Shown one piece after another: positions 1-27,861 of a stretch of 42,250 bases of DNA. The DNA comes from an uncultured Gemmata sp. GTDB taxonomy: Bacteria; Planctomycetota; Planctomycetia; Gemmatales; Gemmataceae. Below the pieces are notes generated by a model. The model was given only the letters and a program-made list of their open reading frames with translations, had not been told where the DNA came from and did no database searches. Every line of letters begins with the position of its first letter. Within the stretch, counting starts at the first letter, position 1. The translations under genes were made by a program, and so were the position numbers. The DNA lies in contig CALDUT010000015.1 in NCBI GenBank assembly GCA_937924775.1, forward strand, positions 1 to 42,250, read 5' to 3'.

Positions 1-1
1 A

Positions 2-514: not shown

Positions 515-576
515 CCGCCGCCGCACATTGCGCGATGGTGCGGGAACTGGCTATTCTGTTCGCAACCTGTTACTTC

Positions 577-583
577 GGAGGAA
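577..583 (+). promoter_or_regulatory. Ribosome binding site of the integrase
   Basis: GGAGGAA lies 6 bases before the ATG at 590. It fixes the integrase start and marks it as a separately translated gene after the polymerase stop at 514. Confidence 0.7.
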
Positions 584-589
584 CCCTCG

Positions 590-1873: not shown

Positions 1874-1923
1874 CGGAGCGGGGGATTTTAAGTCCCCTGT
1901 GTCTGCCATTCCACCACTCACCC
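1839..1923 (-). tRNA. tRNA-Leu(UAA)
   Basis: An 85-nt cloverleaf on the minus strand. The acceptor stem GGGTGAG pairs with CTCACCC, with discriminator A and no encoded CCA. The anticodon loop CTTAAAA carries UAA and is closed by a five-base-pair stem. There is a long class II variable arm, as expected for leucine, and a T-arm GCGGG-TTCGAAT-CCCGC. The gene looks intact, and the integrase reading frame enters it antisense from the left, marking it as the integration target. Confidence 0.95.
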
Positions 1924-3412: not shown

Positions 3413-3480
3413 CTTCCTTCTTGTTCTTGCATGCGAAGCAAGATACAGTAACGACCTATCGGCGTCACGAGGAACTGGCT

Positions 3481-3485
3481 GAGGG
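3481..3485 (+). promoter_or_regulatory. Ribosome binding site supporting the GTG start of nuoH
   Basis: GAGGG lies seven bases before GTG 3493. This favours that codon over the in-frame ATG at 3421, which would leave only 8 bp between nuoH and the divergent scpB and add 24 non-hydrophobic residues. Confidence 0.5.
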
Positions 3486-3492
3486 AGTGACT

Positions 3493-8850: not shown

Positions 8851-9128
8851 AAAGACTATCCTTGAAACGATCGCGGATCGCCCGGACCCAGAGATTGTAT
8901 GAATAGAAAGAAAATCGATGGAATCGAGTGCATCGGGTGGAGGCGTTGTAGCTGCTGTAGCGGATCTAGCGAACAATAAGAATTCAAATTGGCGTCCGAC
9001 AGTCCTTGACGATCACACCGCTTGCTGTTATTGCAAAAAAATTAGGAAGTTCTACAACTTCCTCCAACACAACAACAGAGCTGTTAACGATTTGGGTTCT
9101 GCCCATTGCGGAAGAGGCTCATCACCAC

Positions 9129-9134
9129 GGGAGG
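9129..9134 (+). promoter_or_regulatory. Ribosome binding site selecting GTG 9141
   Basis: GGGAGG lies six bases before the GTG at 9141. It supports that start over the upstream in-frame codon at 9006, whose extra 45 residues have no family-like features. Confidence 0.6.
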
Positions 9135-9140
9135 CGAGCC

Positions 9141-10657: not shown

Positions 10658-13411
10658 TCAGCCTCGTATGTTCAGCCGGGCCAACACTTCCTCCATCAAT
10701 CCCGGCCCTGAGAGGCGGAAAGCCGCTTCGTGCGGGCAAGCCTCCACGCAGAATGGCTCCTCCCCGCCACAGAGATCGCAGTTGACGGCCCGCCGCGCCG
10801 CGGTCAGATGGGGATTGCCGTTGGCCTGATCAGCCGCAGCCGGGTTGGGAATCGCCCGCGGCACCATGTGAATGGCCCCGTAGGGGCAATTGCGTTCGCA
10901 CAATCCACAACCGATACAGTGGTTCTCAATAATCACTTCCAAGTGATTCCCATGCCGGTGAATCGCATCGACGGGGCACCCCTCCATACAGTACGGCTTG
11001 TGACACGAGCGACAGGACGTGGCCACGAGGAAATCCCCAAAGCGTAAGCCTTCACGCAACAGTCGGGCGTTACCATCGTGCGAATCGGCACAAGCCCGGG
11101 TACATTCGTCGCAGCGTGTACACGTTTTCAGATCAAGAACCAGTAGGCGCTGCCCCTGATACAGCCCTTGGCGGACATACTCGCGGAGCAAGCCCGGCGG
11201 TGGGTTCCCCTGCACTCCGGGGACCGCGGCTCGGGGGATGGATCGTAAACCCTCCCGCAATTTCGGGAAAGCTTCACACAAATGGCGAAAGACCGGCCCC
11301 GGCACCCGCACGATTTCGACCGGGTCCAAGGCCGCGACGGAAGCGGTCCGAACGCCGGGGCGATCGGACAGGAGGGCAGTTTCTCCGAAGTAATCCCCGG
11401 CCGACAGCAAGCGGAAAACCTGCTCTCCGCCCCCGGCTTGTGTGAACACTTTCACAGTTCCTAAACGAATGATGTAGAAAGCGGCGGCCGTATCCCCTTC
11501 GGCCACAATCTTTTCCCCCGCGGCCACGCGGCGAAACTCGGCCCCTTTGCCATCAACACGTTCGCGGAGGAGGAATTTCACTGCCTCTTCGCGTTCGGCG
11601 GCATCCAGCAAGGCAAAGATACGCCCGCTACGCACACAGGTTTGAATGGCACGGAAAGAGTACATCTCTTCGATGTCGCCGCGAGCGGATTCGGCCCGTT
11701 GCATCATATCCAACAGGTTGCGGGTCACCTCGTAGACGATCACGGGTCCACGAGCCTGGGGGTGGCGAATGGCGATCGGCCGACCGTTGTCGTCGTAAGC
11801 CAATGCGATCTGCGGGTTATCGGGTTCGGCCACCCCTACGACCGTCGCGGTCCGGGGCCGCTGCGTAAGGCAGGTCATTTCACCCAATACGAGTTCTGTG
11901 CCGGAAGCGACGCGAAGCAACTGCCCGTAGTCGCTGGTGGCATCCGTGTCGGTGCGACCCCACAGACGTTCGAAGAAACCTTTCTTTCGGGGGGGAGCAG
12001 AACCGCGGGAATAAAGCTCGAATTGGCCAGTGCCTTGCAGGAGAAACGCGGTATTCCCGTATTCGCCTTCTCGGCACAGCAGTTTGCGCTCGCCCGGCCG
12101 TATGATCCAACGGCGAACCGAACCTTCGTTCCACTTCAAATACGAGTAGGGTATGGAACGGAAGGGGAAGATGACACGCGAGCCGCGAGTAGGGCTCTCA
12201 TAGGCCAGCCAGATGTCCCGCATTTCATCGGCTGTCAGAAAATCCGAACCTGAGGGGAAGGACGTGTTGGGGTTGACCGGAATTTGTTCAGGCGAATCCG
12301 GCCACGCTCGGGGTTGGACACGCCGCCGCAGAGACAACGCCCCCGTGGGGCAACTGTTCATGCATTCGCCGCATTGAACACAGCTCGATTGCCCCATCAG
12401 GTTATCCAAATCGAAGCTGATCCGAGTACCGTACCCTCTGCCAGTATGACCAATAACCTTGAACGGCTTCACTTCCGAACAGGCCCGCACGCAACGGTCG
12501 CACAAAATGCAGCGGTCATGATCGACGACCACCGTTCGCGAGGAATACGGGTAGTCACGATCGATCTGCCGGTTCCACTCCTCCCACGCCTGATGAGCCG
12601 CGGCCTGCTGTTCCGCTTCGATCGGCGTCTGCAGGATGTTCAGCGGAAACCGGCGCGACTTGGGATGAACCGCGGCCGGATTATTACGACTTGGCGAATC
12701 TGTATTACGGCGAACGCAATCGCGGACACCCTCTGGACTCACCCCCAACGCGTGGGCAACTGCAAGCAATTCGTCGTCGTAGCGTTTGGCGTTCCCCAGT
12801 GATGGAAAGTAATGATCGGCCAGCAGCAATTCCGCGAGCATCCGCACCGCGTTGTTAACCTCATCGGCAGCCCGTTCGACGACCCGAAAATCGGCTTTCT
12901 CCCGGGTTTGCGGGTTGTAACCATCGATGCCAGCACGGGTTGTAACGACCATATTCGTTTCGACCCGGTGCTGACACGCCGGCACCAACCTCCGCCCCGG
13001 GGTGAGTTTGCCCCGTTTCATGGTCGATACGTGAACCGAACACATCCGGCACACCGCCACGGGCGATACATGGCGCTGATGGCATAACACCGGGATGCGT
13101 GTGCGGAGATCGTCTTCGGCCCACAGGCCTTGCTCCACCAACCGAACCGCGGCGTCGTGGATCGTCGTGGTTCGTGGAATCAATTGCCCTTGGGCATCAC
13201 GCAGTGGATTGCCCTGGGCATCGGTTTTGGGTACGGCTCGTGGAACGCGGACATTGTAACCGTCGATCACAATGTCCACGAATTGTTCAAACCGCTGGAG
13301 GGTTTCTTTTTCGCGACGGATGAGGACGTCGTTCTCATCGCGAGCAAAGAGGGATTCTTCCTCCCGCCCCAAGAGATCCAGATCGATATCAGGATTGGTG
13401 AATTCCGGCAT
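10658..13411 (-). CDS. NuoG-like iron-sulfur protein with two cyclic-nucleotide-binding-like domains and a polyferredoxin tail
   Basis: A 917-residue fusion, last gene of a four-gene operon. Domains in order: a NuoG-type [2Fe-2S] ferredoxin (Cys110, 121, 124, 146); a linker matching the NuoG region that normally binds an extra cluster but lacking its Cys set; two [4Fe-4S] sites (Cys301/304/307/311 and 344/347/350/354); a first CNB-like beta-roll at about 430-560; a second, more typical one at about 600-715 (G-D-Y-F-G-E-T-A-L-L); and a C-terminal HycB/DmsB-like domain with four more four-Cys sets (764-774, 800-812, 832-842, 878-892). It has no molybdopterin domain and no membrane segment. It probably relays electrons from the NuoEF protein encoded 33 bp upstream. 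Ligand gating through the CNB domains is inference, and the first is divergent. Confidence 0.88.
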   Translation of the reverse strand: MPEFTNPDIDLDLLGREEESLFARDENDVLIRREKETLQRFEQFVDIVIDGYNVRVPRAVPKTDAQGNPLRDAQGQLIPRTTTIHDAAVRLVEQGLWAEDDLRTRIPVLCHQRHVSPVAVCRMCSVHVSTMKRGKLTPGRRLVPACQHRVETNMVVTTRAGIDGYNPQTREKADFRVVERAADEVNNAVRMLAELLLADHYFPSLGNAKRYDDELLAVAHALGVSPEGVRDCVRRNTDSPSRNNPAAVHPKSRRFPLNILQTPIEAEQQAAAHQAWEEWNRQIDRDYPYSSRTVVVDHDRCILCDRCVRACSEVKPFKVIGHTGRGYGTRISFDLDNLMGQSSCVQCGECMNSCPTGALSLRRRVQPRAWPDSPEQIPVNPNTSFPSGSDFLTADEMRDIWLAYESPTRGSRVIFPFRSIPYSYLKWNEGSVRRWIIRPGERKLLCREGEYGNTAFLLQGTGQFELYSRGSAPPRKKGFFERLWGRTDTDATSDYGQLLRVASGTELVLGEMTCLTQRPRTATVVGVAEPDNPQIALAYDDNGRPIAIRHPQARGPVIVYEVTRNLLDMMQRAESARGDIEEMYSFRAIQTCVRSGRIFALLDAAEREEAVKFLLRERVDGKGAEFRRVAAGEKIVAEGDTAAAFYIIRLGTVKVFTQAGGGEQVFRLLSAGDYFGETALLSDRPGVRTASVAALDPVEIVRVPGPVFRHLCEAFPKLREGLRSIPRAAVPGVQGNPPPGLLREYVRQGLYQGQRLLVLDLKTCTRCDECTRACADSHDGNARLLREGLRFGDFLVATSCRSCHKPYCMEGCPVDAIHRHGNHLEVIIENHCIGCGLCERNCPYGAIHMVPRAIPNPAAADQANGNPHLTAARRAVNCDLCGGEEPFCVEACPHEAAFRLSGPGLMEEVLARLNIRG

Positions 13412-13444
13412 GATGGCACCACCGATGAGAAAATTCGCGCAAGT

Positions 13445-15538
13445 CTAACTCTCCAGGCTTCCTTTACCCGCCGGCTTGGGGCGCAAGTCTTCAGGAAAGT
13501 AGGTCAACGCGGTGGCCAGCGGAATCGGGGCGACATAACCCAGGCCGCAAATGGATGTCAGTTGCAGCGTGCGGTACAAGTCGCGGACATCATTCGCCAG
13601 GCGTTCGGCTTCCGTCCCCATGTGGGCTTGACCAGCGTCACGGCGTTGCAATAGATCAGTACCGATTTGCACCAATTTCTGCGAACCGATGCGGCAAGGC
13701 ACACATTTCCCACACGATTCGTTGCGGAAAAATTCCGTGAAGTTGACCGCGTGATCGAGAACGTCCACATTCCCGGCGTACACGATGATGGCAGCTCCGA
13801 GCATGGGTTCCACGGGCAAGCGGAAGACACTGTTCATGTTGCGGAAAAAGACCAAATCGAGAGGAAGCTCGAGGACATCCAGCTCGTTCGCCCCCAGCGG
13901 AACACGGGCTTGCAGGAACCACTCCATAAACGCCGCGTCCGTTGGTGCACGGTCGGCGATTTTGGCAACAGCTTCTGCCCGTTTGCGTTCGTCGAACTTC
14001 GGATCGATCGGCAGTTTGGCGGGTAAAAGCCCTCCGGAAGGTCCGGATGTGGCGACTGCCCGCAGCGGACCGTTGATGATTCCCCCACAGTAACGGGGGT
14101 CGGTCAGAAGTTCCCGCAGCGGCAGGCCGATGGGGACTTCATAAACTCCGGGCCGGGCCACATCTCCACTGACGGAGAACAGCCGCCGCCCCCCCAGCTT
14201 CGCGGTAGCTGGAGTCGGAGCGTGCCAGCCCCCCTTTTCGTACTTGTCCCCACCGAAAAGCACGATCGCCGGAGCCCAGGCCAATGTTTCAACATTGTTG
14301 ACAACCGTGGGTTTGTCGCGGAAACCGTTGGTCGTCAACTCGGGGGGGCGATTCCGCGGTTGCCCCCGGCGATCCTCCATCGCTTCAATGAGGGCTGACT
14401 GTTCGCCACAGATGTAACCCCCTGGGCTTTCAAAGACCTCGACGGAGAAATTGCGTTTGGTGTCGAAAATGTTGTCGCCACAGGCTCCAAGACCCTCCGC
14501 ACGGCGAATTTCTTCTCGTACAGCCTGAATTTGCTCGTGATATTCATGCCGGATGAATATATAGCCCGCGGTCGCTCCGGTCATCAGCCCCGCGAGGATG
14601 ACCCCCTCGACCACCAAATGAGGCATGCGCAGCAGCAGTTCACGATCTTTGAACGTGCCCGGCTCGCTTTCATCGCCGTTGCAGATGATGTATTTCTCGC
14701 TGACTTCCAATCGTTCGTCGGCATCACCGGAGGTCGCCCGCCACACATCCAACCACTTCTGATAGGTCTGCGCCCCGGCCCCGCCCATGCCCAACAAATT
14801 GGCGGTTTTCAACTCCACGAGCATGGGGTGCCACTTTTGAATGTAATTATCCAGTTCTTTCCCGGTCAGTTCGCGGGGGGGCGGAAGGAGCGGTCGGCCA
14901 AGATTCTTCAAATAGTCGGTGAAACGACGCACCGCGCGGTAATCTCGGGGCCATTTCTGCCGGCCGTAAATGTCTAAGGACCAGCCCGCGGCCTCCAACG
15001 GGGGGGGATCATCAGGGCCGACGACCGGCTGACAATAGCCGCGATTGGCATTGGTATGGGGAAGGTAGCCCGCGTCGGTATCCGGGGGTGGAGGTGGTTC
15101 ACCGCACGCCAAGCGGCGAAGAACCCCCTCGAGGAACGGCTGATCGCGTTGGCAATACACCCAGGCGTGTTCATCGGCGGGCATGGGTCGTTGTTCAACC
15201 CACACCGCCGGGGCCCGATCGCAACGGCCCAGACACGACACCCCCTCCACACAAATCGTTTGCCCAGTTTGCTGAACCAATTGCTGAGCCACAACGGGCA
15301 ACCCGTAGCGGTTGTCCAATAAATGAGCCGCGCCGCGGTGGTGGCAAATGGCATCCCGGCACACGCGCAGTACGATTTTCGCGGGATTTGTCCGCTCCAG
15401 GACAAAGGCCGGGAAGTAACTGCTCACTTCCTCGATCCGATACAGCGGCACACCGCTTTCCTCGGCTAGCTTTTTCAGCTCTTTGTCGGGAAGAAAGCCA
15501 TAGCGATTCTGAATCTCACGCAAGCGTTGGACAATCAT
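13445..15538 (-). CDS. NuoE-NuoF fusion, NADH-oxidising flavoprotein
   Basis: A 697-residue fusion of the 24-kDa-type NuoE and 51-kDa-type NuoF modules of NADH dehydrogenases. The N-terminal part has the thioredoxin-like [2Fe-2S] ligands Cys60, Cys65, Cys102 and Cys106 (CX4C and CX3C). A linker of about 60 residues follows. The NuoF part has the Gly-rich FMN/NADH site (L-G-M-G-G-A-G-A-Q-T), C-N-G-D-E-S-E-P-G-T-F-K-D-R (Ser where Gly is usual), E-S-P-G-G-Y-I-C-G-E-Q-S-A-L-I, and the [4Fe-4S] ligands Cys609, 612, 615 and 664. It should oxidise NADH and reduce the Fe-S protein encoded downstream. Fusions of this kind also occur in hydrogenase and formate dehydrogenase diaphorases, but no such catalytic subunit is nearby. 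Confidence 0.93.
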   Translation of the reverse strand: MIVQRLREIQNRYGFLPDKELKKLAEESGVPLYRIEEVSSYFPAFVLERTNPAKIVLRVCRDAICHHRGAAHLLDNRYGLPVVAQQLVQQTGQTICVEGVSCLGRCDRAPAVWVEQRPMPADEHAWVYCQRDQPFLEGVLRRLACGEPPPPPDTDAGYLPHTNANRGYCQPVVGPDDPPPLEAAGWSLDIYGRQKWPRDYRAVRRFTDYLKNLGRPLLPPPRELTGKELDNYIQKWHPMLVELKTANLLGMGGAGAQTYQKWLDVWRATSGDADERLEVSEKYIICNGDESEPGTFKDRELLLRMPHLVVEGVILAGLMTGATAGYIFIRHEYHEQIQAVREEIRRAEGLGACGDNIFDTKRNFSVEVFESPGGYICGEQSALIEAMEDRRGQPRNRPPELTTNGFRDKPTVVNNVETLAWAPAIVLFGGDKYEKGGWHAPTPATAKLGGRRLFSVSGDVARPGVYEVPIGLPLRELLTDPRYCGGIINGPLRAVATSGPSGGLLPAKLPIDPKFDERKRAEAVAKIADRAPTDAAFMEWFLQARVPLGANELDVLELPLDLVFFRNMNSVFRLPVEPMLGAAIIVYAGNVDVLDHAVNFTEFFRNESCGKCVPCRIGSQKLVQIGTDLLQRRDAGQAHMGTEAERLANDVRDLYRTLQLTSICGLGYVAPIPLATALTYFPEDLRPKPAGKGSLES

Positions 15539-15594
15539 GGCCGTGTCTTTCGGTCAGTCCTTCACCGCCAATTAGCAAAGACGGTACGCGGGGG

Positions 15595-17235
15595 TCACAT
15601 TCCGCGGAGCCACTCGGCAATGTCGCGGGTTTTTTGAGGGAAACGCAGGGGCGAACCACGGCCTTGAAGCGGAAAATCGCCGTGGTGGTAGTTGTGGCAA
15701 TCGGTGCAATTGTGGCGAATGCCCCCTGCGCGGCTGGTCGAGCCATCGGGCCATTGCACCCGCGTCTGTGTCGGTGCATGGCAGCTTCGACAGGAATCAA
15801 TCCCCACAATCGCCACCGGCTCCGGTTGGTTGGCCTCCATCGGGCTGATTTCGCGGCCCTCAGTTCCCGGATGGCACGTCGCACAACTGGCCCCACGATG
15901 GGCCGCGTGATTGAACTTCGCATGGGTGAACCACACCGTGCGATCCGGAACCGGTCGAATGCGGAATTCGTGAAGATTCTCAGGATTGCCGACGGTTTGA
16001 TGGCACTTGGTACAACCATTTTCGCCGCTCAGAAGCAGCTGTTCGGCCCGTTGGGCCAATTCACTGGCTATGGTATCTAACGATGCCGCCGCGGAATTCG
16101 GCCGCGGAGCATCGAGTCGGCCTCCGGGTTCGGCGGGTTCTCGCAAAGCCGGATGCCCCCCGGCAATCAGTTCCTTGACATAACCGGCTTTCAGAAGTGG
16201 CCGCAATTGAGCCGGTTGTATCCGGTGTGGCACATCGAAGCGGGGAAGCACAAACTTCAGCTCCCCGCTGCTGACCTGCCCTTCGATCGCCGTCGTGGGG
16301 TGGCACGCCCGGCAATGAAGTTCGTAATTGATGGGCAAAAAGTAAGCTCCGGCAGCCCGGGGAGGCAACAGCGAGCGTGTCGGTGCCCCCCATTGATCGA
16401 GCGCGGCTTGGGATTTCTCAAAGCCACGGGTGCCAATACCCGCATCCAGCTGGTGACACGACGCACAATCAAGTTGAACCTGATCAGCATCGGTTTGACC
16501 GGGCTTGCGGTAACGTTCGGCGACTTCAGGCCCATTCCACTCTTTGAGCCGGCCCAAAGTCATCGCTTCTTTGCCGTTCTTCGTATAAGTTTGCCCCAGA
16601 TTCATATGAACCGCGTGACTGAAGGTGAGCGTTCGTGGTTTGTGGGCGATGTTGAGGGACCGGAATTCGGGGTGGTTGGTCACGAAGTTGGTCACGGAAT
16701 TGTGATAAGGCGGATTCGCACGCGATTTCGCCGGTTCGAACCACTTCGCCAGGTCGGAATGACACCGGTTACAATCCGCATCGGCCAGACGAACCAGCGA
16801 GTGCTGTCGTCCACGATGGTCGTGATGACAGTTCGAGCAGCGGTTATGCAGGGCCCGCGCGGCGTCGGTGGCGGAATCGTGATGCCCGAACAGCGGACTG
16901 TCGGCCCCGGCGTGGCATTGACCACAGGTCAGGTCGTGCCAACGGTCGCGGACGTTCAAAAATTTACCATTCAGAGCGTCTTTCCAAGAATAACTGGCGT
17001 GACAGGCCACACAGTTGTCGTCGAAAGCGGCATGAGGGTTGGTGAGGGGGCCATGAGTATGGGCATAAGCTGTTTGCTGGGAATGAGTTACATCGATAGC
17101 CGCCCAAGCACCGGCGGCACAGAACGCCATCACCGCCAAAATGTACTGCCCTCGGCGCAGGCGATCCGGATTGCGGAAATAGCCGCGGCGGCCCGTGTAG
17201 CGATCCGATAAATCTCGACTCGGTGAACGGGGCAT
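15595..17235 (-). CDS. Decahaem cytochrome c, membrane-anchored
   Basis: A 546-residue protein with ten CXXCH haem c sites (in order VA, GQ, SN, NR, AS, RA, TK, AT, RS and TD between the cysteines). A basic N-terminus precedes one hydrophobic segment at about 30-48, which is a signal anchor or uncleaved signal, so the haem domain faces the periplasm. Extra His residues (H-H-D-H-R-G, F-S-H-A-V-H-M, H-A-K-F-N-H-A-A-H) can supply distal haem ligands; F-x-H-x-x-H is common in cytochrome c3/c7-like domains. It sits 52 bp or less after the cytochrome b gene and 56 bp before the NuoEF fusion. It is a plausible exit route for electrons from the membrane. An in-frame TTG at 17268 is a weaker start. 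Confidence 0.9.
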   Translation of the reverse strand: MPRSPSRDLSDRYTGRRGYFRNPDRLRRGQYILAVMAFCAAGAWAAIDVTHSQQTAYAHTHGPLTNPHAAFDDNCVACHASYSWKDALNGKFLNVRDRWHDLTCGQCHAGADSPLFGHHDSATDAARALHNRCSNCHHDHRGRQHSLVRLADADCNRCHSDLAKWFEPAKSRANPPYHNSVTNFVTNHPEFRSLNIAHKPRTLTFSHAVHMNLGQTYTKNGKEAMTLGRLKEWNGPEVAERYRKPGQTDADQVQLDCASCHQLDAGIGTRGFEKSQAALDQWGAPTRSLLPPRAAGAYFLPINYELHCRACHPTTAIEGQVSSGELKFVLPRFDVPHRIQPAQLRPLLKAGYVKELIAGGHPALREPAEPGGRLDAPRPNSAAASLDTIASELAQRAEQLLLSGENGCTKCHQTVGNPENLHEFRIRPVPDRTVWFTHAKFNHAAHRGASCATCHPGTEGREISPMEANQPEPVAIVGIDSCRSCHAPTQTRVQWPDGSTSRAGGIRHNCTDCHNYHHGDFPLQGRGSPLRFPQKTRDIAEWLRGM

Positions 17236-17287
17236 GGGACTTTTACTCGTAAGTGCCAGTTGTCGCAATATGAAGTCAGGCCATCAC

Positions 17288-18169
17288 TTACCAAAATTTC
17301 AAGGCCCGATAGGCGTGCAATAGCATCAAGCCCGTCATAGCGACCGATAAGGGTAAATGTAACAACAACCAATTATGTAACCAGAAATGCAATCGTGCTT
17401 GTTCGTCCCAGCGTCGGCGTAAGTCGGCCAATTCCTGCAAGCGTTCGAGAACCGAACGCGCCGCGGGCGGAACCGCTTCCCGAAGCCGGCTAAAGCGCTG
17501 CTGCGCATCCGAGGGTGTCGCCAACAACGATCGCGAATAACTTCCCGATTGCAGGTAAGGAACCAGTTCCTGATCGCGAAAAGCAATCAATTCCGCCGCA
17601 AGCGGCCCCACGACCACCGGTTCTGAGGATTCCGCTTCTGGGGGCACCGTCACCAAGCTGGTAATCAGCCGCCCGGCTTCATCGGCATGGTAATGGCCCA
17701 AGCGGTCGATCTGCGAAGCGATGGACTCGCCGGGAATGTCGTGGAGCATTTTCTCCGGCAACCACTGCTGCAGGATGAGGCCCCAAATTCCGCTGGCCGT
17801 GACCAGAAGAAAGAGAATCATCACCGTGGCCGGCAAGGGCCCCCCGAAACCAAACCCGGCATGCAGAAGAATGATGGGTAAACCGATAAGCCCCATCCAG
17901 ATGTGCCAGCGCATCCACGCCCGTGTGCTACCTAACCGTTTTCCTCGCAACCACTTACGCGGCAACATCAGCATCTCAAAAAGAACAATCGCCCCCCCCA
18001 GAAGACCACAGGCCACGCCAAAGCCGCTACTCGGCTGCGGCGGCCATTCCCACAGGCCCACCGCGGCTCCGGCCGCGGCCAGCAGGATGACCCCCAGTGT
18101 GATGCCGACCGTGGCGAGGACAATCGCCAGTACGCGGTCGCGAACCGGTTTTGTCCTCCCCAAAAGCAC
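17288..18169 (-). CDS. Dihaem membrane cytochrome b
   Basis: First gene of the minus-strand operon. A 293-residue protein with about five membrane helices: 14-38, 50-70, 88-107, 112-135 and 270-288. Two helices each carry a histidine pair 14 residues apart: His89/His103 and His271/His285. That arrangement is the signature of two stacked b haems in ferric-reductase and cytochrome b561-like proteins, which move electrons across a membrane. A soluble, charged segment of about 120 residues separates the last two helices. GTG 18169, with GGGAG six bases upstream, is chosen; an in-frame TTG at 18199 would add ten residues. Its role as the membrane link between the NADH-oxidising proteins and the periplasmic haem proteins is inference from operon order. 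Confidence 0.8.
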   Translation of the reverse strand: MLLGRTKPVRDRVLAIVLATVGITLGVILLAAAGAAVGLWEWPPQPSSGFGVACGLLGGAIVLFEMLMLPRKWLRGKRLGSTRAWMRWHIWMGLIGLPIILLHAGFGFGGPLPATVMILFLLVTASGIWGLILQQWLPEKMLHDIPGESIASQIDRLGHYHADEAGRLITSLVTVPPEAESSEPVVVGPLAAELIAFRDQELVPYLQSGSYSRSLLATPSDAQQRFSRLREAVPPAARSVLERLQELADLRRRWDEQARLHFWLHNWLLLHLPLSVAMTGLMLLHAYRALKFW

Positions 18170-18512
18170 TGGCAACTCCCACGAAAAAATGGATGCCAAG
18201 GTCTTGTGCGGGATACTAACTCACCTTTCCCAAGGGGTCAATCAATCGCCCAAAATCTTGATGAAATGCAGACACTTCGCGGAACATGGCGGGCGATTGT
18301 AAGAGTTGGGCAAGAATGACTCACCCTGTGGCATTCACCGCCACGGTGAAATCCACAAAAATGCCTGGCCGCCCCCCAAACGCTTGCATCCCGCTACAAA
18401 AAGCTGGAACATGAGGTACGATTTCCTCGACCCCTACGGCGCACGGCTCCACGGCGATCAGACCCTCTGCCGCCAGTGGTGTTGGATTGTTGGGCCCCAT
18501 AACCATGGCATT
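18170..18512. other. Divergent intergenic region between two cytochrome operons
   Basis: About 340 bp between the cytochrome b gene (minus) and the first pentahaem gene (plus). An open plus-strand frame crosses most of it, but its translation shows no domain or signal. It should hold the promoters of both operons. The only clear structure is the 17-bp palindrome at 18334-18350. Confidence 0.5.
18334..18350. promoter_or_regulatory. Perfect 7-bp inverted repeat, candidate operator
   Basis: TTCACCG-CCA-CGGTGAA is a 17-bp palindrome with a 3-bp centre in the shared upstream region of the two divergent cytochrome operons. Its size and position would suit a dimeric regulator controlling both sides. 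A small RNA hairpin is the alternative. It was found by eye only. Confidence 0.3.
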
Positions 18513-19973
18513 ATGAATCAAACCGGGACGATCCTTCTGCTCGCCATCGCGGCTTTCTCAGTGACCGGTTTGGTCGTTTCCTTGTATGGGAAATCCGAAT
18601 CGGTGACGGTCGCTGTCCCGTCGTTACGCGACCTCCCGCACCCCTTGCCAACCTCGCGCACGCTGCATCAACCCGTCGGCATGGCCGGTTGCCTGGCCGC
18701 GGCTTGCCACGGTGGGCCGGCCGAGCGAACGTTGGCCCGGCAATTCGACGCCCGCACATGGCAAAGTTCCGGGACTTGCTGGGCCGCGGCCGACCCACAC
18801 ACGGCCGCTTATAGTCTTCTGACCGATCAACCCTTGCGACCGGTCCGCGTTACGGCTCGGCACATCATGGAACGCTACGCCCCGGGAAAACCAGCCACAC
18901 AGGAACTGCGGTGCTTGGCTTGCCACACCAATCCGGCCTTGGCTCGGTCCGAGCTACTGCATGATACCCGGGCTGCGGTTCTGCGTAACGAAGGTGTCGG
19001 TTGTGAGGCCTGTCACGGCAATGCCAGTGGTTGGATCAACAGCCATACCACTTGGAACGGCGACCGGTCGCGTGTGTATGCGGAAACCGGGATAACGCCG
19101 CTTTTCGACTTGGGCGAGCGGGCCATGACCTGCGCTGGCTGCCATGTTGGTGCCCCGGCGGATCCCGAGCGGGGCTGGCCGGTGCGTGACATGAATCACG
19201 ACATGATCGCTGCCGGTCATCCGCGGTTGAATTTCGATTTCGCGGAGTATTTGCGTCGCTTACCGCCTCATTGGCTAGAGAAGGATCGCACCACCAATAC
19301 CGCTCGCCCGCTCAATCCGGCCAAGGTATGGTATGTGGGCCGGTATGCCCAGGCCGAAGCGGCCTGCCGCTTACTCGCCGATCGGGCTCAACGTGCGGGT
19401 ACCGATCCCCACACACCATGGCCGGAGTTTTCCGAATACAACTGTTCTTCCTGCCATCACAATCTGCGAGTTGCGAAACCCGATGACCCCTCTGCGGATT
19501 GGAGAAGGTCGGAGGACTATCTGGCCGGCCGCCCCTTGAGTGCCCCGTTGTGGCAGATTTTGTGGCCGGTGGGTTCCGCACCAGGCTTAGCAAAGCCTTC
19601 GCGGACGGATACGCTGTTGTCGCCGGTGGTCAGCTTGATGGAAGATAGTCGTCGCGGGCCGCCAGCGCATGCGGTTCCGCCGGTCGTGTTACAAATAGCA
19701 CAAACTCTTCGCGACAAACGGATTGCATTGGTAGCAGCACCCGATGCCGACGTGCAGCAGGAAGTGCAGCGCTTTCTGTCCTACGAGGGGAAGCTATTGC
19801 CCGAATGGGATACGGCGCAACAGCTCTTCTACGGGCTGGCCGCGTTCGATCGTGTCCAGGGGCACTATCCGGAGCAATTGTTGAAAACGTACCAATCGGC
19901 CGTGACGGCTTTCCGGAATAACGATTGGAATGAAGTGGACAAGGCTGTGGAGGCGATACGAAAAGGAAAGTAA
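18513..19973 (+). CDS. Pentahaem cytochrome c, first of three paralogues
   Basis: A 486-residue exported protein with five haem sites: one CX4CH (Cys60, L-A-A-A between the cysteines) followed by four CXXCH. ATG 18513 puts a hydrophobic signal anchor at residues 6-24; the frame is open 69 codons upstream but without signal features. Landmarks shared with the next two genes are G-V-G-C-E-A-C-H-G, the A-A-G-H-P-R motif whose His may be a distal ligand, a Tyr/Asn-Cys-x-x-Cys-His-His site, and a haem-free helical C-terminal region of about 170 residues. It resembles the cytochrome c-554 type of multihaem fold. It is probably a periplasmic electron carrier or reductase; the substrate is unknown. 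Confidence 0.87.
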   Translation: MNQTGTILLLAIAAFSVTGLVVSLYGKSESVTVAVPSLRDLPHPLPTSRTLHQPVGMAGCLAAACHGGPAERTLARQFDARTWQSSGTCWAAADPHTAAYSLLTDQPLRPVRVTARHIMERYAPGKPATQELRCLACHTNPALARSELLHDTRAAVLRNEGVGCEACHGNASGWINSHTTWNGDRSRVYAETGITPLFDLGERAMTCAGCHVGAPADPERGWPVRDMNHDMIAAGHPRLNFDFAEYLRRLPPHWLEKDRTTNTARPLNPAKVWYVGRYAQAEAACRLLADRAQRAGTDPHTPWPEFSEYNCSSCHHNLRVAKPDDPSADWRRSEDYLAGRPLSAPLWQILWPVGSAPGLAKPSRTDTLLSPVVSLMEDSRRGPPAHAVPPVVLQIAQTLRDKRIALVAAPDADVQQEVQRFLSYEGKLLPEWDTAQQLFYGLAAFDRVQGHYPEQLLKTYQSAVTAFRNNDWNEVDKAVEAIRKGK

Positions 19974-19995
19974 AGATCGACTCCCGCAAGGATGC

Positions 19996-21561
19996 GTGGT
20001 CCCATCACCGCGAGTAGGCACCGTGCGTAGCTTGGTATTGATGGCGGTCATCCTGGGTGGCTGCACCGCAGCGGGTCTGGTGAACCCGGTGCTTTCGCAA
20101 CCGAGTCCTGAAGGGCCATCCACTCCTCGTCTTAACAGTCAGACCGTAACATCCGCGTCCCCTCTTTTGTATGGTGTCGGTACCAGTCCTTTCCGTCATC
20201 GTCCGGCCACATCCTGTTCCGCAGCATCATGCCATGGGGGCGGGCAGATTGGCAAGGTTGGTAGTGAACATTCGACCTGGGCCCCAGAAGTATTTCCCGC
20301 CGGGGAGACGGATCCGCACAGCAGGGCCTACCGGGTTCTCTTCAACCCTGTGTCGGTGGAAATGGCCAAAAAGTTGAACCTCGGCGAAGCGCACAAGGCC
20401 GAACTGTGCCTCCAGTGCCACGCGGTGGTCACTTCCGACGAACCGGATATTCGCGAACAAATCCTTGCCGAAGGAGTGGGTTGTAGTGCTTGTCATGGTC
20501 CAGCGGAGAAATGGCTGAACGTACACTACCTGCCGGAATGGCAAACTCTCTCTTCCCGCGACAAATGGCAAAAATATGGTTTCATCCCCACGAAGAATTT
20601 GGTGGCTCGGGCATTGAATTGTGCCCGTTGTCACCTGGGCGATTCCACCCGGGAAGTCAACCACGACCTCTACGCGGCAGGTCATCCACGGATCACGTTT
20701 GAAGCCGCTAGGCTCCATTATCAGCCCGATTACCGCAAACATTGGGCCGAACAACTCCCGCAGCCAGATTTCGAGATTCGTTTATGGATCGTCGGTCAAG
20801 CGGCCGCTTTGCGTTCGGCCACCGATCTGCTCCGGTCTCGTGCCGAGCGAGCATTGCCCCCCGGCGCTGACCGCGTATGGCCCGAATTCGCGAGCTATAG
20901 CTGCTACTCTTGCCATCAACGGATCGGTGACGACGTGATTCGCGGTAGCCTGTCGGCATCCCCTCGCCCACGCGGGGTCCCCGGCTGGGAAGTGTTGACC
21001 AACACCTGTGGGGATATTGCCGCACACTATTGCCGTATCGCCTACCCCGGTTTAAGCTCACCAACACTGATCGAAGTTCAAAAGCTAAGAAAATTGATGG
21101 AATCGCCGCGCCCCCCGTCTGTCGCGCGCGTCAAGGAGCAAGCAACCAAAGCCTTGGCCGAATTGGATGCTTGGCTGGTCGCCCTCCAAGCCGCTGAGGA
21201 CGAAAAGCCCCAACCGCTCCCCTCAGAAACGGCCGAGAAACTGGCTCATGCAATCGCCAATAACGCGTTGAGCCTGGGAGCTAACGGCGAAACCCTTCTG
21301 GCCGATCACGATTGGGATGCATTGGCGGCGAATTACCTTGGTTGTGCGGCGATGTACCATGCCAGCGCCGGGAAATTCCCCGCATGGAAGCGACCATTGG
21401 ATTCGCTGCAGGAGCAACTGCGGTTCCCGACGCCTTCGCAAGGCCGGTTCGATAGCCCGGCGGATTGGACTGTACAAAAACTGAACACGCTGCGAGATAA
21501 CTTCATCCAACTGCGGAACGTTACCGCACCGTCCGCAACCCCAAACGGGGGAAAGAAATGA
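19996..21561 (+). CDS. Pentahaem cytochrome c, second paralogue, putative lipoprotein
   Basis: A 521-residue paralogue of the preceding gene with the same haem order: CX4CH (S-A-A-S) then four CXXCH (L-Q, S-A, A-R, Y-S). The A-A-G-H-P-R motif and the G-V-G-C-S-A-C-H-G core are conserved. The N-terminus R-S-L-V-L-M-A-V-I-L-G-G-C has a lipobox, suggesting attachment to a membrane by a lipid on that Cys. GTG 19996 gives a 22-residue signal. GTG 20023 would give only 13, and the in-frame ATG at 19930 would overlap the previous gene by 44 bp. Same operon as its neighbours, with a 4-bp overlap to the next gene. Confidence 0.85.
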   Translation: MVPSPRVGTVRSLVLMAVILGGCTAAGLVNPVLSQPSPEGPSTPRLNSQTVTSASPLLYGVGTSPFRHRPATSCSAASCHGGGQIGKVGSEHSTWAPEVFPAGETDPHSRAYRVLFNPVSVEMAKKLNLGEAHKAELCLQCHAVVTSDEPDIREQILAEGVGCSACHGPAEKWLNVHYLPEWQTLSSRDKWQKYGFIPTKNLVARALNCARCHLGDSTREVNHDLYAAGHPRITFEAARLHYQPDYRKHWAEQLPQPDFEIRLWIVGQAAALRSATDLLRSRAERALPPGADRVWPEFASYSCYSCHQRIGDDVIRGSLSASPRPRGVPGWEVLTNTCGDIAAHYCRIAYPGLSSPTLIEVQKLRKLMESPRPPSVARVKEQATKALAELDAWLVALQAAEDEKPQPLPSETAEKLAHAIANNALSLGANGETLLADHDWDALAANYLGCAAMYHASAGKFPAWKRPLDSLQEQLRFPTPSQGRFDSPADWTVQKLNTLRDNFIQLRNVTAPSATPNGGKK

Positions 21562-23324
21562 TCACCCAACCGATTCACCGCATTCGTCGCTTCAGCCTAT
21601 TGGTTACGATCTTTGCGGCGGTGGTATTGGCCCTTTGGTCCGAAACCTCGCCGTCGCCACTGAGCGCGGCCGCCCCAGCCCCGTCGGTATCGGCATATCC
21701 CTTACCAAGTGCGGATGAGCAGAAAACCCTCCAATTGATCGGGGCCGCGGAATGCAAAGTGTGCCACAGCGAGGCCGAACCGGAAAAGATCGATCTCTAT
21801 AAAGAAACCCTGGGCTACGAATTCATCCGGTTGTGGGAAAACAAAGTGTGGTCAATTCACGATTTGCATTCCACCGCGTACAAGAATCTTCTCACGAACC
21901 GCACCGCGAACAAGGCTAGAAACGAGGTTCCCAACCCCACCGCGCAGCGGATGGAAGATAATCTCCGCCGCTACAAAGGGGAGAATTACACCGTCGCTAC
22001 CGATGTGGGGTGCTTGGCTTGCCATGCCAGCGTCCTTCGGCCGATTCATGTAGTTCCACCAGACAAATGGACGATGAAGTCGTTCATCACCATCGATGGT
22101 GTGGGTTGCGAAATGTGTCACGGGCACGGTTCGCTGTACAAAACCCGGCATCGCGACTCGCAGATCGACCCCGACAATGCCCCAGAAGGAGCCGTTCGTG
22201 TGGTCGAGTGGCGGGAAGTCGATCCGAAGACCAAATCCGCGTGGGGCTTAGTGAATCTGCGCGACCACACCACGGCAGTGGCTCAATGTGCTTCGTGCCA
22301 CATCGGCAATATCAAGGACGGTCGGTTTGTCACCCACGAATGGTATGCCGCCGGCCATCCGCCGCTACCGCCGCTGGATGTCGTCGCCTTCACGCGGGAA
22401 CAGCCCCGCCATTGGGGGCTCCCCTCGGAGCTGCCATACTTCCAAAAATTGTTGAAAAAGGACCCGAAGAAGGCCGAGGCGATCTTCCACATCCGCGCGG
22501 GGGAATCTCATGGGGTCCGACGGTTCGCGGAAGCCACCCTCGCTACCCTGCGTGAGTCGGTGAACCTGGCCAGCCAGCTGGCAGAATCGAGCCAGGGTGA
22601 AGGGCTGGATTTTGCTGCGTTCGATTGTGCGTCGTGCCACCACGATTTGAAGTACCCCAGCGACCGCCAAGCCCGGGGCTATCGGGGGAAGCCCGGCCGG
22701 CCACTCTTCCGCCCTGCGGCGTTCGCCCTAGCGAAGATCGTTGTTGAACATGCCGCGCAGATGGATAATGCCAATCAACACCTGAAAAACGCCCCGGCCC
22801 AACTGGCCGCGGCGGAAAAGCAGATGCTTGAGGCGTTCGCCTCTAAATCCTTGGGCGACCCCGCCAAGATCATGGCGGCGGCCGAGAATTTGATAAAGTG
22901 GTGCAATGAGACGATCTCACAACTGGGTGCAGTGCGTTACACACCAGCGGAAACCAAAAAGCTAGTTGCAAAAGTGATCGAAGCCACCCAACAGCCCATC
23001 GCCGACCCTGAAATCGCCCAGCTCTACACTTGGGCCTTCGAAACGTTGGTGTTGGATTTGGTTCCCCCCACCAAGGACGCCCAAGGCAAGCTCGCACCCC
23101 CATCGGGTGTTACAGAAATCCGCAGTAAACTCCGCGACCTCGTGGTCACCCGGCTTCGCCCCGAATCGGATTTCGACTATGAAGTTCCTGGGTCCATGAC
23201 GACCACTGGAAACCTCAAACCGGTGGATGCCCGCATCGGTCCACGGATGCAGATTTTCAATTCCTTCCGCTACGATCCTTTCCGCAAAGCTTTTCAAGAC
23301 ATCGAACCTTTGGCTTTGCGATAA
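21558..23324 (+). CDS. Pentahaem cytochrome c, third paralogue
   Basis: A 588-residue exported protein with a signal sequence at 10-28 and five CXXCH sites (K-V at 66-70, L-A, E-M, A-S, A-S). It shares G-V-G-C-E-M-C-H-G, A-A-G-H-P and the Asp-Cys-x-x-Cys-His-His site with the two preceding proteins, but its first haem site is CXXCH instead of CX4CH. The C-terminal 200 residues are helical, without haem. Its ATG overlaps the previous stop (ATGA), so translation is coupled. It ends 75 bp from the oppositely oriented giant cytochrome. Three related but diverged copies in tandem suggest three stations of one pathway rather than recent duplication. Confidence 0.88.
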   Translation: MITQPIHRIRRFSLLVTIFAAVVLALWSETSPSPLSAAAPAPSVSAYPLPSADEQKTLQLIGAAECKVCHSEAEPEKIDLYKETLGYEFIRLWENKVWSIHDLHSTAYKNLLTNRTANKARNEVPNPTAQRMEDNLRRYKGENYTVATDVGCLACHASVLRPIHVVPPDKWTMKSFITIDGVGCEMCHGHGSLYKTRHRDSQIDPDNAPEGAVRVVEWREVDPKTKSAWGLVNLRDHTTAVAQCASCHIGNIKDGRFVTHEWYAAGHPPLPPLDVVAFTREQPRHWGLPSELPYFQKLLKKDPKKAEAIFHIRAGESHGVRRFAEATLATLRESVNLASQLAESSQGEGLDFAAFDCASCHHDLKYPSDRQARGYRGKPGRPLFRPAAFALAKIVVEHAAQMDNANQHLKNAPAQLAAAEKQMLEAFASKSLGDPAKIMAAAENLIKWCNETISQLGAVRYTPAETKKLVAKVIEATQQPIADPEIAQLYTWAFETLVLDLVPPTKDAQGKLAPPSGVTEIRSKLRDLVVTRLRPESDFDYEVPGSMTTTGNLKPVDARIGPRMQIFNSFRYDPFRKAFQDIEPLALR

Positions 23325-23399: not shown

Positions 23400-26300
23400 T
23401 TACAGTCTAACAATCCGCCGGCGACGCCGCTTCGTCCGCCGGCGTTCTTCATACAAAGCTGTATCCTTGGGGTTGTCGCTCACAACCCACAGCTTACCGT
23501 TGCGAAGATACATTTTCCGCTGTTCGGCTTCGTTGAGCGGTCGCGCCCCCACACGGCCAAACACACCGATTTGGTGCCCGTTTTCATCTACCGCGCGGTC
23601 GCGGTCGAGCGCCCGGGCGACGTTAATGACCTTGCCGCCATGCGGCAACCGATAAGTGGCGACCAATCGGGGAGTTGGCCGAACCGAGAAGCCCTCATAA
23701 CCCGGTGTTTGCGGCGAGAATAACTGCACCACGCGTAAGCCATTTTTACCGTCGGCGATATAGGCAAACAAACTGTTGTAGGTAATGGCCAATTGAACCG
23801 AACGGGCATCGTTGATGTGCCCTTTAGCGTCGAAAATCTGATCCACACGCGGTTCATCGGCTTTCGTGATGTCCAGAATCACCAAACCTCGGGAACCTGC
23901 CGCGATGTAAGCGTAGGTGCGGGCCAAGTAAATGCTGTGGGCCTCGGCCATACGCAGCACCGCTTGGGGTACCGGTTTGGCCAAATCCGTGATGTCGAGA
24001 ACTTTGATGCCCTCCTCGTCACAAACATACGCGTAACGGAACTGGGCCGCGACCATCCGAGGCCGTTTGAGGTACTTCTCGTCAATAATCGACTCGATCT
24101 TCGGGTCTTTCGGGTCATCAATATTGACCACAACCAAGCCAATATCACAACTCACATAAGCATAGTGACCAATGATTTGGATATGGCGAGCATCGTAGAG
24201 AAGCCCATCCGGATTGAAACACACCTCTTTCTTCAGGAAGTTATTGACGGGGTTACCATCCAACGTAGTCATGATATCGACGACAATCATCCCTTCGTAC
24301 TTATCTGCGATGAAGGCGTATTTGTACATGGGATGAATGGGCTGCTCGTTGTTGGTGGGCAAGACTTTGCGATTGGGGTCGAGTGTCGCCGTGGTTGGGA
24401 AGGCCACCCACTGGGCATATTTTGTGTCAACGTAAAATTTCTGCCCGACAGGAGACACCGGGGCGGTGATGATCCGCTCGGCAAACGCCTTATCGTCGAT
24501 GAAGGCGATGTCGAAAACGCGAACCCCCCCTTCCCCACAGGCGGCAAAGAGATACTCGCTGCGGTGCTGGACCATCAGCACTTCTGATTTCTTCAGTGGC
24601 CGGGTAACGCCGGTGGCAATGTCGCGTCCTGGATGTTCGTAGGCTTGTTTCAGCAGCCCACCCGCGGCAGCGTGCTTCTTATACTGATCTGGGTAGGCAT
24701 AATAGTGCAAATCGCTGCCGAAAACCGCTTGCGGCTCGGTGGATTCCGTCACCACCACGCCAAATAACCCCTCTTCACCGGCAGCCACCCACGCATATTT
24801 GCCCATAAAATTCATCATGCCGGTCCCGTGCATGAGCAATTGGGCCAGAATTGCGTTGTTGTCGTTCTCTTTCGAGACATGGCAATCCGTACATGATTTG
24901 GTTTCGCGAGCCCCGCGACCGCGGACCGTGTGCGGAACATTTGTACTAAAGGCGATGCCGCTGAAGCCGCCACCCGAAATCGTGGGTTGCTGGGTGTAGA
25001 TCGCCTCCCGATTGCCGTTGTAGCTGGTGACGTGAATCGCACAGCTCGAGCGGGACGGATTAATCTTATTGCCCGTCGCGTCCCCATCACGAGCCAACAT
25101 ATACGTACAATCCCGCAATGTTTGGAAATTGTAGGCGGTGTAGTTGCGTTGAATATCGCCATCGCCGTGCAGCATCGGAGCTTTGATGTTGGCCCGCTGC
25201 GGCAGGTGGCAACCAAAACAGCTTGGGTTCCACGCAGAGTGGCAGGTCATGCAGGTCATGTTGTCGTTACTGTGGGCACAGTGGCCGTCGGCGGGCAGGT
25301 CGCCCCACACCATTTTCCCAGTACCCGGTTCAAAGCGGACCGTTTTCGCGAGGGCCGATTTTTCGTTGTAGCGGGGATGCTGGGGGTCGATCGTGTCTTT
25401 CACCTGAACGATCTCCCACTGCAACCCCTTCTCCACGGCGGAGTTTTGGAAGAAGCGTTTAGTTCCGTTGGGGCCCTCGCGGACTTCAAATCGCGGGGTG
25501 CCGAAGGGGGTCCGCAGGGCCAAAAGATTCCGCCCTTTGCCATCGGGCGACGATGTGTAACTGGCCGGGCCACTGGTTCGCAGCGTCGTGTACGACGAAG
25601 TCGTCCCATGGCAATCAACACATTGAATTTCGATGGCCGCGCGGACTTCCATATGCAAACGGTTGTTACCGTGCCCATCCTGGGAGAAGTGACAATCCAC
25701 ACAGTGCATACCCTTCTCCATGTGGATGTCTAAAAGATGAACAGGCAGGCCATTCCGGCATTGTTCATCGAGCCGGGTTTCTGCATCCCGAGCTTGCCGA
25801 GGCCCTTGGACCGGATCCGGAAACTTCATATCCTGGTGGAACTTTTTCGCCTTGAGAGGCCATTCGACCGCGGCGGCCATCTTTCGCGCATCTGGAGGGC
25901 CGACAGGATTGCCCTTGTGGTCGATCCATTGCCCGTGGCGATCTTTTTTGAACACCGCTCGATAAGCCCAACCATGACCATGAAAATCAGCAAAGTGAAC
26001 TTTCGTTAAGTGCGGGTTCAGTTGACTCAGTTCCGCGAGAAACTCGGGATCCGATAGATTGCTGCGGGCCGCGGATTCATTGGGGTTACGCAGCATGGAG
26101 CGGATCAGCTCCTCAGCGGTGGGGTTTTTCTGCTTCGCCGGATAGATGAAGGCGGCATCGCTTTCTTCGTCGTACCACATGTAACCGATGTAGCTATTCA
26201 TCACCGTGGTGCCGGGGTGAACATGGCATACCATGCATTGGCTAGTGGGAATGGAATTGGTGAATTGATGCTGAATCGGGTGACCACTTTCTTTTTTGGG

Positions 26301-27461: not shown

Positions 27462-27861
27462 GTGCGACACCCTCCCCCGAATGAGGCTTCCTCGCCCTGG
27501 CGGAAGCGATTTCCGTGCGAAGGTTTCGCCTCATACCACAGTTCCGAGGTTTGTCAAGTCAATTTTCTAGCATTCACCCCCGGAGTTGCAGTAAATATCT
27601 CTGTGTGAAGGATTTACGCTGCTATCAGCGATCGTGTCTTCGAGGACACTGAGGACGGCTTTTGAGGTTATTAGGGGCAGGCTCGGTCCGCTCCAGCTGG
27701 CGAGCAGATGGGGCTTCCGAAAACGTCACGCAGTAGCTTTGCCCTTGCTCGCAAGGGGCGAATTGCTCTAATAAAGTTATCCAACCTCGTTGCCCCGGGA
27801 TGAATTTCCTTCGCGAGGGGCTGCCACCGGCCATTCCCATTGCACGCGAGTGACTCTCACC
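27462..27861. other. Divergent intergenic region
   Basis: 400 bp between the giant cytochrome (minus) and the DUF1501 gene (plus). It should contain both promoters. I see a weak GC-rich hairpin at 27742-27760 (GCCCTTG, CTCG loop, CAAGGGGC) without a T run, and a small hairpin at 27634-27649. No gene is evident. Confidence 0.4.

Follow-up and report, generated by a model that had tools for sequence, protein, structure and literature searches.

What does a bacterium use an NADH-oxidising flavoprotein for when its gene stands in one operon with those of a membrane cytochrome b, a decahaem cytochrome c and an iron-sulfur (Fe-S) protein that carries cyclic-nucleotide-binding domains? The question is raised by contig CALDUT010000015.1 of an uncultured Gemmata sp. 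(phylum Planctomycetota; assembly GCA_937924775.1, 4.79 Mb, 97% complete). The stretch of DNA analysed here, to be referred to as the window, is this entire contig (C15), 42,250 nucleotides in length. The four genes probably encode a single inner-membrane complex, a cyclic-nucleotide-controlled NADH:periplasmic multihaem cytochrome reductase. The gene set is far beyond chance, and it recurs in Planctomycetota and in some Verrucomicrobiota.

The operon consists of four open reading frames (ORFs) on the minus strand, in the order cytochrome b (CYB), decahaem cytochrome c (CYC), a NuoE-NuoF fusion (NuoEF) and the cyclic-nucleotide-binding Fe-S protein (CNB), with gaps of 52, 56 and 33 bp between them (Table 1). 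The start codons were set by comparison with relatives, and the GTG start of CYB was picked by homology. A preliminary description of the locus had reported four genes on one strand, spaced 33-56 bp apart, and had counted seven Fe-S clusters beyond those of NuoEF, two b haems and ten c haems. The ORFs and their spacing are confirmed, the 28 cysteines of the CNB protein (4+8+16) fit the seven clusters, CYC has ten CxxCH motifs, and four His residues kept in all CYB homologues fit two b haems, which they would bind. The Fe-S and CNB character of the last protein also holds, with the correction that it has two domains for cyclic nucleoside monophosphates (cNMP). The nearest relatives among the matches are metagenome-assembled genomes (MAGs) of Gemmata, which we take to be of a hot-spring type; the CNB protein is 91% identical in Gemmata sp. 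SKYG68 (L063).

In the CNB protein, Fe-S modules and cNMP-binding domains are combined in one chimeric chain. Pfam finds cNMP_binding, Fer2 and many Fer4 matches in it, and its AlphaFold model has a pLDDT of 77.3 and a pTM of 0.76. Twenty-six of the 28 cluster cysteines are invariant in 80/80 sequences, and the other two are found in 79 (one gap). The N-terminal part (residues ~40-380) has a structure similar to those of the A chain of NfnABC (Z score of 19.4, 2.5 Å over 214 residues), the α subunit of formate dehydrogenase (FDH; Z 19.1) and NuoG of complex I (Z ~18); hydrogenase α chains match this part as well. An N5-type cluster was not found in this protein, as PF10588 is absent and no conserved Cys is located between residues 146 and 301; the Pfam scan finds PF10588 in the NuoG of the genome's own complex I. 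The C-terminal ferredoxin part has a profile match to HycB3 of the hydrogen-dependent CO2 reductase HDCR (7qv7_A), with an E value of 7e-21.

The two cNMP-binding domains are located between these two Fe-S halves. The phosphate cassette of the first domain is well conserved (G510 in 80/80 sequences, E511 in 78/80, R520 in 80/80 and A522 in 77/80), as is that of the second (G676 in 80/80, E677 in 78/80 and R688 in 79/80). The second domain matches the structure of CRP with cAMP (Z 17.2), and the top Foldseek matches of the pair are the regulatory tandems of PKA and PKG (E 2.2e-13). Two class III cyclase domains are found in the same genome. The first domain has two additional Cys residues, 446 and 514, kept in 72/80 and 76/80 sequences; one of them lies within the phosphate cassette, and the two are possibly redox-sensitive.

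NuoEF contains the NuoE (PF01257), NuoF (PF01512), SLBB (PF10531) and NADH_4Fe-4S (PF10589) domains in a single chain. Its eight cluster Cys residues are invariant in 63/63 sequences, and the FMN/NADH motifs are nearly so.

The membrane part is represented by CYB, with residues numbered here from a 303-aa ORF beginning at 18199. His99/His113 and His281/His295 are kept in 88/88 homologues (a set in which some genomes are counted twice) as two pairs, each on its own helix with its members 14 residues apart. In di-haem cytochrome b and ferric-reductase-like proteins, His pairs are spaced 13-14 on two helices, and CYB has this two-helix, two-pair pattern. The loop between transmembrane (TM) helices 2 and 3 has on average 7.0 Lys and Arg residues versus 0.6 Asp and Glu. 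By the positive-inside rule this loop is probably cytoplasmic, and by helix count the helical insert of ~120 residues between TM4 and TM5 would be cytoplasmic as well. The AlphaFold model of CYB (21 sequences) is all-helical, with a pLDDT of 90.6. The CYB of the window has no Pfam match at an E value of 0.01. With E values up to 10, 21 CYB proteins give weak matches to DUF4405 (18/21) and Ferric_reduct (8/21), and NrfD was not found among the 25 of 26 families listed. For CYB, no match in a profile search against PDB sequences went below E 0.03, and none was a haem cytochrome.

The matches of CYC in Pfam are to multihaem c families. Ten CxxCH motifs are present in 61 of 75 strong CYC homologues. 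The 14 exceptions include four with nine motifs and several that run off the end of a locus, are divided between two ORFs or are part of a fusion. CYC is weakly similar to HmcA (E 3e-9) and has no PDB sequence match with E up to 0.01. In one locus (L044, genome G017, an assembly of two contigs), the CYC gene is frameshifted midway. CYB and CYC are the tightest gene pair of the operon, with gaps of 150 bp or less in 41 of 41 cases.

The conservation of the gene set was assessed by a scan of 84,980 named genomes, which returned 376 relatives of the CNB protein; the best 80 loci were kept. NuoEF adjoins CNB in 76 of the 80, and in the other four the contig ends after 3 to 647 bases of upstream sequence. 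All four genes are found in 50 of the 80 loci, 41 of them in the order of the window, seven with NuoEF-CNB facing CYC-CYB, and two arranged otherwise. For the 53 loci with at least 6.5 kb of upstream sequence, the counts are 53 for NuoEF, 43 for CYC, 43 for CYB and 42 for all four together. In relatives of the same genus, the order CYB-CYC-NuoEF-CNB is observed in 15/18 loci, and the other three (L045, L049 and L051) are cut by contig ends. The preliminary description had suggested co-occurrence in relatives as a check, and the genes are kept together both within the genus and in the loci with sufficient flanks.

Twenty loci outside the genus were drawn from the CNB matches. All four genes are in order in five of them (L024, L026, L027, L028 and L030) and rearranged in two (L025 and L029). 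L023 is cut, and the remainder are cores that have no NuoEF, formate dehydrogenases or other loci. Among 88 loci examined for neighbour families, CNB is found in 81, NuoEF in 68, CYC/C554 in 62 and CYB in 50; the next families are each present in 15 or fewer (10 for the LVIVD protein described below), and several families were not identified. The record titles of the loci include Gemmata, Zavarzinella formosa, Rhodopirellula, Rubripirellula, Roseiconus and some Verrucomicrobia, as well as MAG titles 'Kuenenia' or 'Akkermansia', which were not verified.

The system extends beyond these four genes. The preliminary description had treated them as a four-gene module, and this set is real; three C554-type cytochrome genes and a gene for a large multihaem protein with LVIVD repeats, just upstream, also belong to it. 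A C554 homologue is located in the flank of 43/53 loci. In two loci, a single 14-haem ORF combines CYC and C554 (L124, 3945-7082, and L185, 12302-15469), which argues for contact between the two proteins. In many Pirellulaceae-type loci the C554 gene is positioned between CYC and NuoEF, so the four genes are not always contiguous. The LVIVD protein is found in 34/59 relatives, 33 with and one without a strong CYB (defined by E below 1e-40). Over these 59 genomes, both are present in 33, LVIVD alone in one, CYB alone in four and neither in 21. With one genome per genus the same counts are 16/0/2/19 (Fisher p 1.2e-8, with kinship corrected at the genus level only). The single genome with LVIVD and no strong CYB (G016) is 68% complete, and its operon runs off the contig. 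The LVIVD protein has no PDB sequence match with E up to 0.1; with the absence of such sequence or fold matches for CYB and CYC as well, no structural relative was found here for these parts.

Table 1. Positions in the window of the operon, the domains of the CNB protein and the associated genes.
Feature	Position	Strand	Properties and basis
Cytochrome b-like membrane subunit (CYB)	17288..18169	-	~293 aa, 5 predicted TM helices
Decahaem cytochrome c (CYC), membrane-anchored	15595..17235	-	ten CxxCH, one N-terminal hydrophobic segment
NuoE-NuoF fusion (NuoEF), NADH/FMN flavoprotein	13445..15538	-	one [2Fe-2S] and one [4Fe-4S]; Pfam
CNB protein, chimeric Fe-S protein with tandem cNMP-binding domains	10658..13411	-	917 aa; Pfam, AlphaFold, PDB matches
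NuoG/FDH-alpha-like part of CNB	12350..13084	-	[2Fe-2S] C110-C146, 2x[4Fe-4S] C301-C354; Cys invariant in 80 sequences
First cNMP-binding domain of CNB	11717..12139	-	residues ~425-565; phosphate-cassette residues
Second cNMP-binding domain of CNB	11267..11614	-	residues ~600-715; PF00027
HycB-like C-terminal ferredoxin part of CNB, 4x[4Fe-4S]	10712..11146	-	16 Cys, 14 invariant in 80/80, two in 79 (one gap)
C554-type cytochrome a, divergent	18306..19973	+	4 CxxCH; PF13435
C554-type cytochrome b	19930..21561	+	4 CxxCH; PF13435
C554-type cytochrome c	21558..23324	+	5 CxxCH; PF13435
Large multihaem LVIVD-repeat protein	23400..27470	-	1356 aa; 9 CxxCH and one CxxxxCH; PF08309, motif count
Lone NuoH (complex I membrane subunit)	3421-4728		5.9 kb from operon

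The beginning of the window (1-1923) holds a DNA-polymerase-like fragment, an ORF resembling an integrase (590-1873), each of the two assigned by eye, and a tRNA-Leu gene (1838-1923) that overlaps the end of the integrase-like ORF. This region looks like the edge of an integrated element.

The preliminary description had read the operon as a device for NADH-linked electron transfer between the cytoplasm and periplasmic haems. This is still the best reading, as the gene linkage held and a separate NuoF was found for complex I. The features that stand out most were not part of that description: the paired cNMP-binding domains between the Fe-S halves, the cores that have no NuoEF, and the linked C554 and LVIVD multihaem genes. 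In the mechanism that we propose, NADH would be oxidised at the FMN of NuoEF in the cytoplasm. Electrons would then move from the [4Fe-4S] cluster of NuoF to the [2Fe-2S] and two [4Fe-4S] clusters in the NuoG-like part of CNB, and from there to its C-terminal four-cluster ferredoxin part, which may dock on the cytoplasmic helical domain of CYB. Two stacked b haems would span the membrane, with the probable ligands His99/His281 for the inner haem and His113/His295 for the outer one. The outer haem would pass the electrons to the anchored CYC, and CYC to the C554-type and LVIVD multihaem cytochromes. Ligand binding to the tandem cNMP domains between the two Fe-S halves could open or close this wire; the location of the pair between the two groups of clusters makes such allosteric opening its natural use. 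The net flow is most likely outward and without proton pumping, so that the complex would let the cell dispose of surplus NADH in a controlled way. The membrane potential favours electron movement from the negative interior to the positive exterior. As outward flow follows this potential and no pump or bifurcating site was seen, export of reducing power is favoured.

Several observations weigh against this proposal. The 80 loci are biased toward the long, NuoEF-bearing form, as they were ranked by their match to the 917-aa query. Within 9 kb, CYC was not detected in 10/53 loci and CYB was not detected in 10/53. CYB was located elsewhere in 10 of the 11 genomes with no CYB or CYC in the flank, and in one genome (G060) no CYB was found at all. 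The fold of CYB has no Foldseek match with an E value of 0.001 or below, and its structural similarities to cytochrome b561 (Z 7.9) and to the C subunit of quinol:fumarate reductase and bc1 (Z 6.7), obtained with VIA-align, are within helical-bundle noise. The cassette residues E511 and E677 are each lost in 2/80 CNB sequences. The root-mean-square deviation of the CNB pair from PKA and PKG is 10-22 Å among the Foldseek matches listed; each CNB domain fits, but their mutual arrangement is unlike that in PKA/PKG. In locus L179, no NuoEF was detected within 7.3 kb upstream of a long-form CNB gene; a second CNB copy, with NuoEF, is present in the same genome (L180). Finally, four of the 37 genomes with a strong CYB have no LVIVD protein, which runs counter to a simple story.

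The same complex could also run inward, with electrons from a periplasmic donor gathered by the C554, LVIVD and decahaem cytochromes and passed through CYB to make NADH. In nitrifiers, a periplasmic oxidase is the electron donor of C554, and the anatomy would be identical. The Rieske/cytochrome b complexes of anammox Planctomycetes are proposed, in the part of the source cited here, to make NAD(P)H (PMC12954380). On the other hand, no bifurcating site was seen in our system, bringing electrons to the negative side would cost membrane potential, and the neighbour families that could be named (several could not) include no recurrently linked periplasmic oxidase, making this direction unlikely. 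An exit from CYB to menaquinone, with the multihaem cytochromes as a side branch, appears very improbable. Quinone binding is common among di-haem cytochromes b of other families, but CYB is most tightly paired with CYC, and the two remain together in the versions that have no NuoEF. We give hardly any credence to a flavin-based bifurcating enzyme of the Bfu type that splits the electrons of NADH between ferredoxin and haems, even though NuoEF has its best PDB match in the bifurcating HydB and the N-terminus of CNB resembles NfnABC and HydA. In the excerpt of PMC9304861 used here, the Bfu enzymes have clusters B2-B5 in BfuB, which are absent from non-bifurcating relatives, and conserved F182/A202/M204 residues around FMN and NADH. 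The NuoEF columns with Cys in at least 90% of the 63 sequences are four for the NuoE cluster, four for the N3 cluster and C377 only, and do not support B2-B5; bifurcation was rejected on this cluster content.

NuoEF could instead serve complex I, in which case its place beside the cytochromes would be incidental. The preliminary description had found no complex I membrane arm adjacent to the operon; this holds for the arm as a whole, but a lone NuoH gene is located 5.9 kb away. A lone second NuoD is found on contig C19 (L193:8345-9721), with no recognised nuo neighbours. Together, these genes make a scattered second complex I with no NuoF of its own possible, and the genome has two NuoD but just two NuoF. 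One of the two NuoF is the operon copy, and the other sits in a complex I cluster elsewhere in the genome, with recognised NuoA, D, E, F, G, H, I and J and an L-type subunit. The preliminary description would have been refuted by a NuoEF that serves ordinary complex I only; this was not borne out, as that cluster has its own NuoE and NuoG. Moreover, wherever there is room for it (76 loci), NuoEF lies next to CNB, whereas NuoH is near the operon in 1/80. In the NuoEF tree, the operon protein branches apart from the NuoF of its own complex I, whose row is a long branch, and groups with FDH-type NuoEF. No N5 cluster was found in the NuoG-like partner and no Q-module adjoins it; apart from the lone NuoH, neither the Q-module nor the membrane arm is encoded with NuoEF. 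Service to complex I is improbable on these grounds. A remnant of formate dehydrogenase or hydrogenase still in use was also rejected. The molybdopterin domains PF00384/PF01568 are absent from the 917-aa protein, and the identical scan finds them in the true formate dehydrogenases of L040 and L041. No hydrogenase catalytic domain was found in the operon proteins by the Pfam scan, and the best FeFe_hydrog_A6 stretch covers only CNB residues 280-365, with 104.5 bits versus a cut-off of 765.

NADH export through a cNMP-linked cytochrome complex may be a later use of a simpler unit. In at least 17 loci (L031, L032, L034, L036-L039, L159, L163 and L166-L173), CYB and a ten-haem CYC are found with a shorter CNB protein, made of two CNB domains and the four-cluster ferredoxin, and no NuoEF was found nearby. 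CYC is split 6+4 in L168 and L169. Other versions of the core (L174, L189, L190, L191 and L192) have 15- and 17-haem cytochromes flanking CYB and the CNB ferredoxin. Of 343 genomes sampled evenly across the phylum, 110 have a match to CNB at E 1e-20, partial matches of the NuoG/FDH type included, and the long form is present in at least 11. In the phylum of genome G066 (Verrucomicrobiota by the title of its locus), 12/194 match at 1e-40, and the sole full-length match is the centre genome itself.

A tree of the shared CNB core was made with 81 rows, 51 long and 30 short, with midpoint rooting for drawing only. The distribution of the long form on it needs two changes, with the short L161 located inside the long group; if rooted as drawn, these would read as one gain and one loss. 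The NuoEF tree groups L177 and L183 with NuoEF of the FDH type and sets L176 and L178 on their own, a scatter that could reflect repeated gain or exchange of NuoEF. From the NuoEF-less cores and the core tree, the NADH input looks like an added module, and a cNMP-linked b/c/ferredoxin complex seems to have come first. A bolder version of our proposal, which we hold tentatively and with some doubt, is that cAMP or cGMP at the tandem CNB domains joins or parts the two Fe-S groups, switching NADH-driven export, with the NADH module plugged into an older cNMP-controlled complex that is widespread in Planctomycetota.

The nearest known systems in idea are the NAD(P)-linked Rieske/cytochrome b complexes of anammox bacteria, Kustd1480-1485 and Kuste4569-4574, as given in the part of PMC12954380 cited here. 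They are also from Planctomycetota and combine a membrane cytochrome b, multihaem c and a cytoplasmic NAD(P)-linked Fe-S flavoprotein. In comparison, those complexes include Rieske and SUIV-like subunits together with an FAD protein resembling NfnABC, while the operon has a NuoEF diaphorase, a decahaem cytochrome c and two cNMP domains (PMC12954380). Pfam finds no Rieske domain in the four operon proteins, the three C554 proteins or the ORF at 9006-10514. The b-c cytochromes of the CbcL/ImcH type are likewise inner-membrane proteins that send electrons outward, in extracellular electron transfer, but the excerpt used here has them take electrons from quinol rather than from a cytoplasmic NADH flavoprotein (PMC6295460).

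The NAD-dependent formate dehydrogenases and the diaphorase of bidirectional hydrogenases share NuoE-NuoF and a NuoG-like N-terminus with our system, and have the nearest NuoEF among those tested. In the CNB protein, cNMP domains and the four-cluster ferredoxin replace the molybdopterin or hydrogenase part. The HycB/DmsB ferredoxins and Hmc-like complexes have the combination of a four-cluster ferredoxin, a membrane cytochrome b and periplasmic multihaem c. Unlike in the Hmc/Nrf type, no NrfD-type membrane subunit was seen here, and the NADH module and cNMP domains are added. The phosphate-cassette Gly-Glu and Arg-x-Ala of the CNB domains are those of the PKA/PKG tandems and CRP, but the domains are fused into an Fe-S chain and arranged otherwise. 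All the parts are from known families, and the assembly fits no family whose defining features were tested. No description of the gene set was found in the open-licence PMC papers, subscription papers being outside the scope of the search. We know of no report of cyclic nucleotides acting as ligands that directly gate a respiratory electron chain, and there is a real chance that the cNMP-switched wire is of a new kind.

If the proposal is correct, Planctomycetota and some Verrucomicrobiota would have an undescribed outlet for NADH, which bypasses complex I and the quinone pool, leads to periplasmic haems and is under second-messenger control. This would explain the role of some of the many multihaem cytochromes of planctomycetes, and the finding supplies defined genes, residues and host strains, such as Gemmata massiliana and Rhodopirellula sallentina, for testing it.

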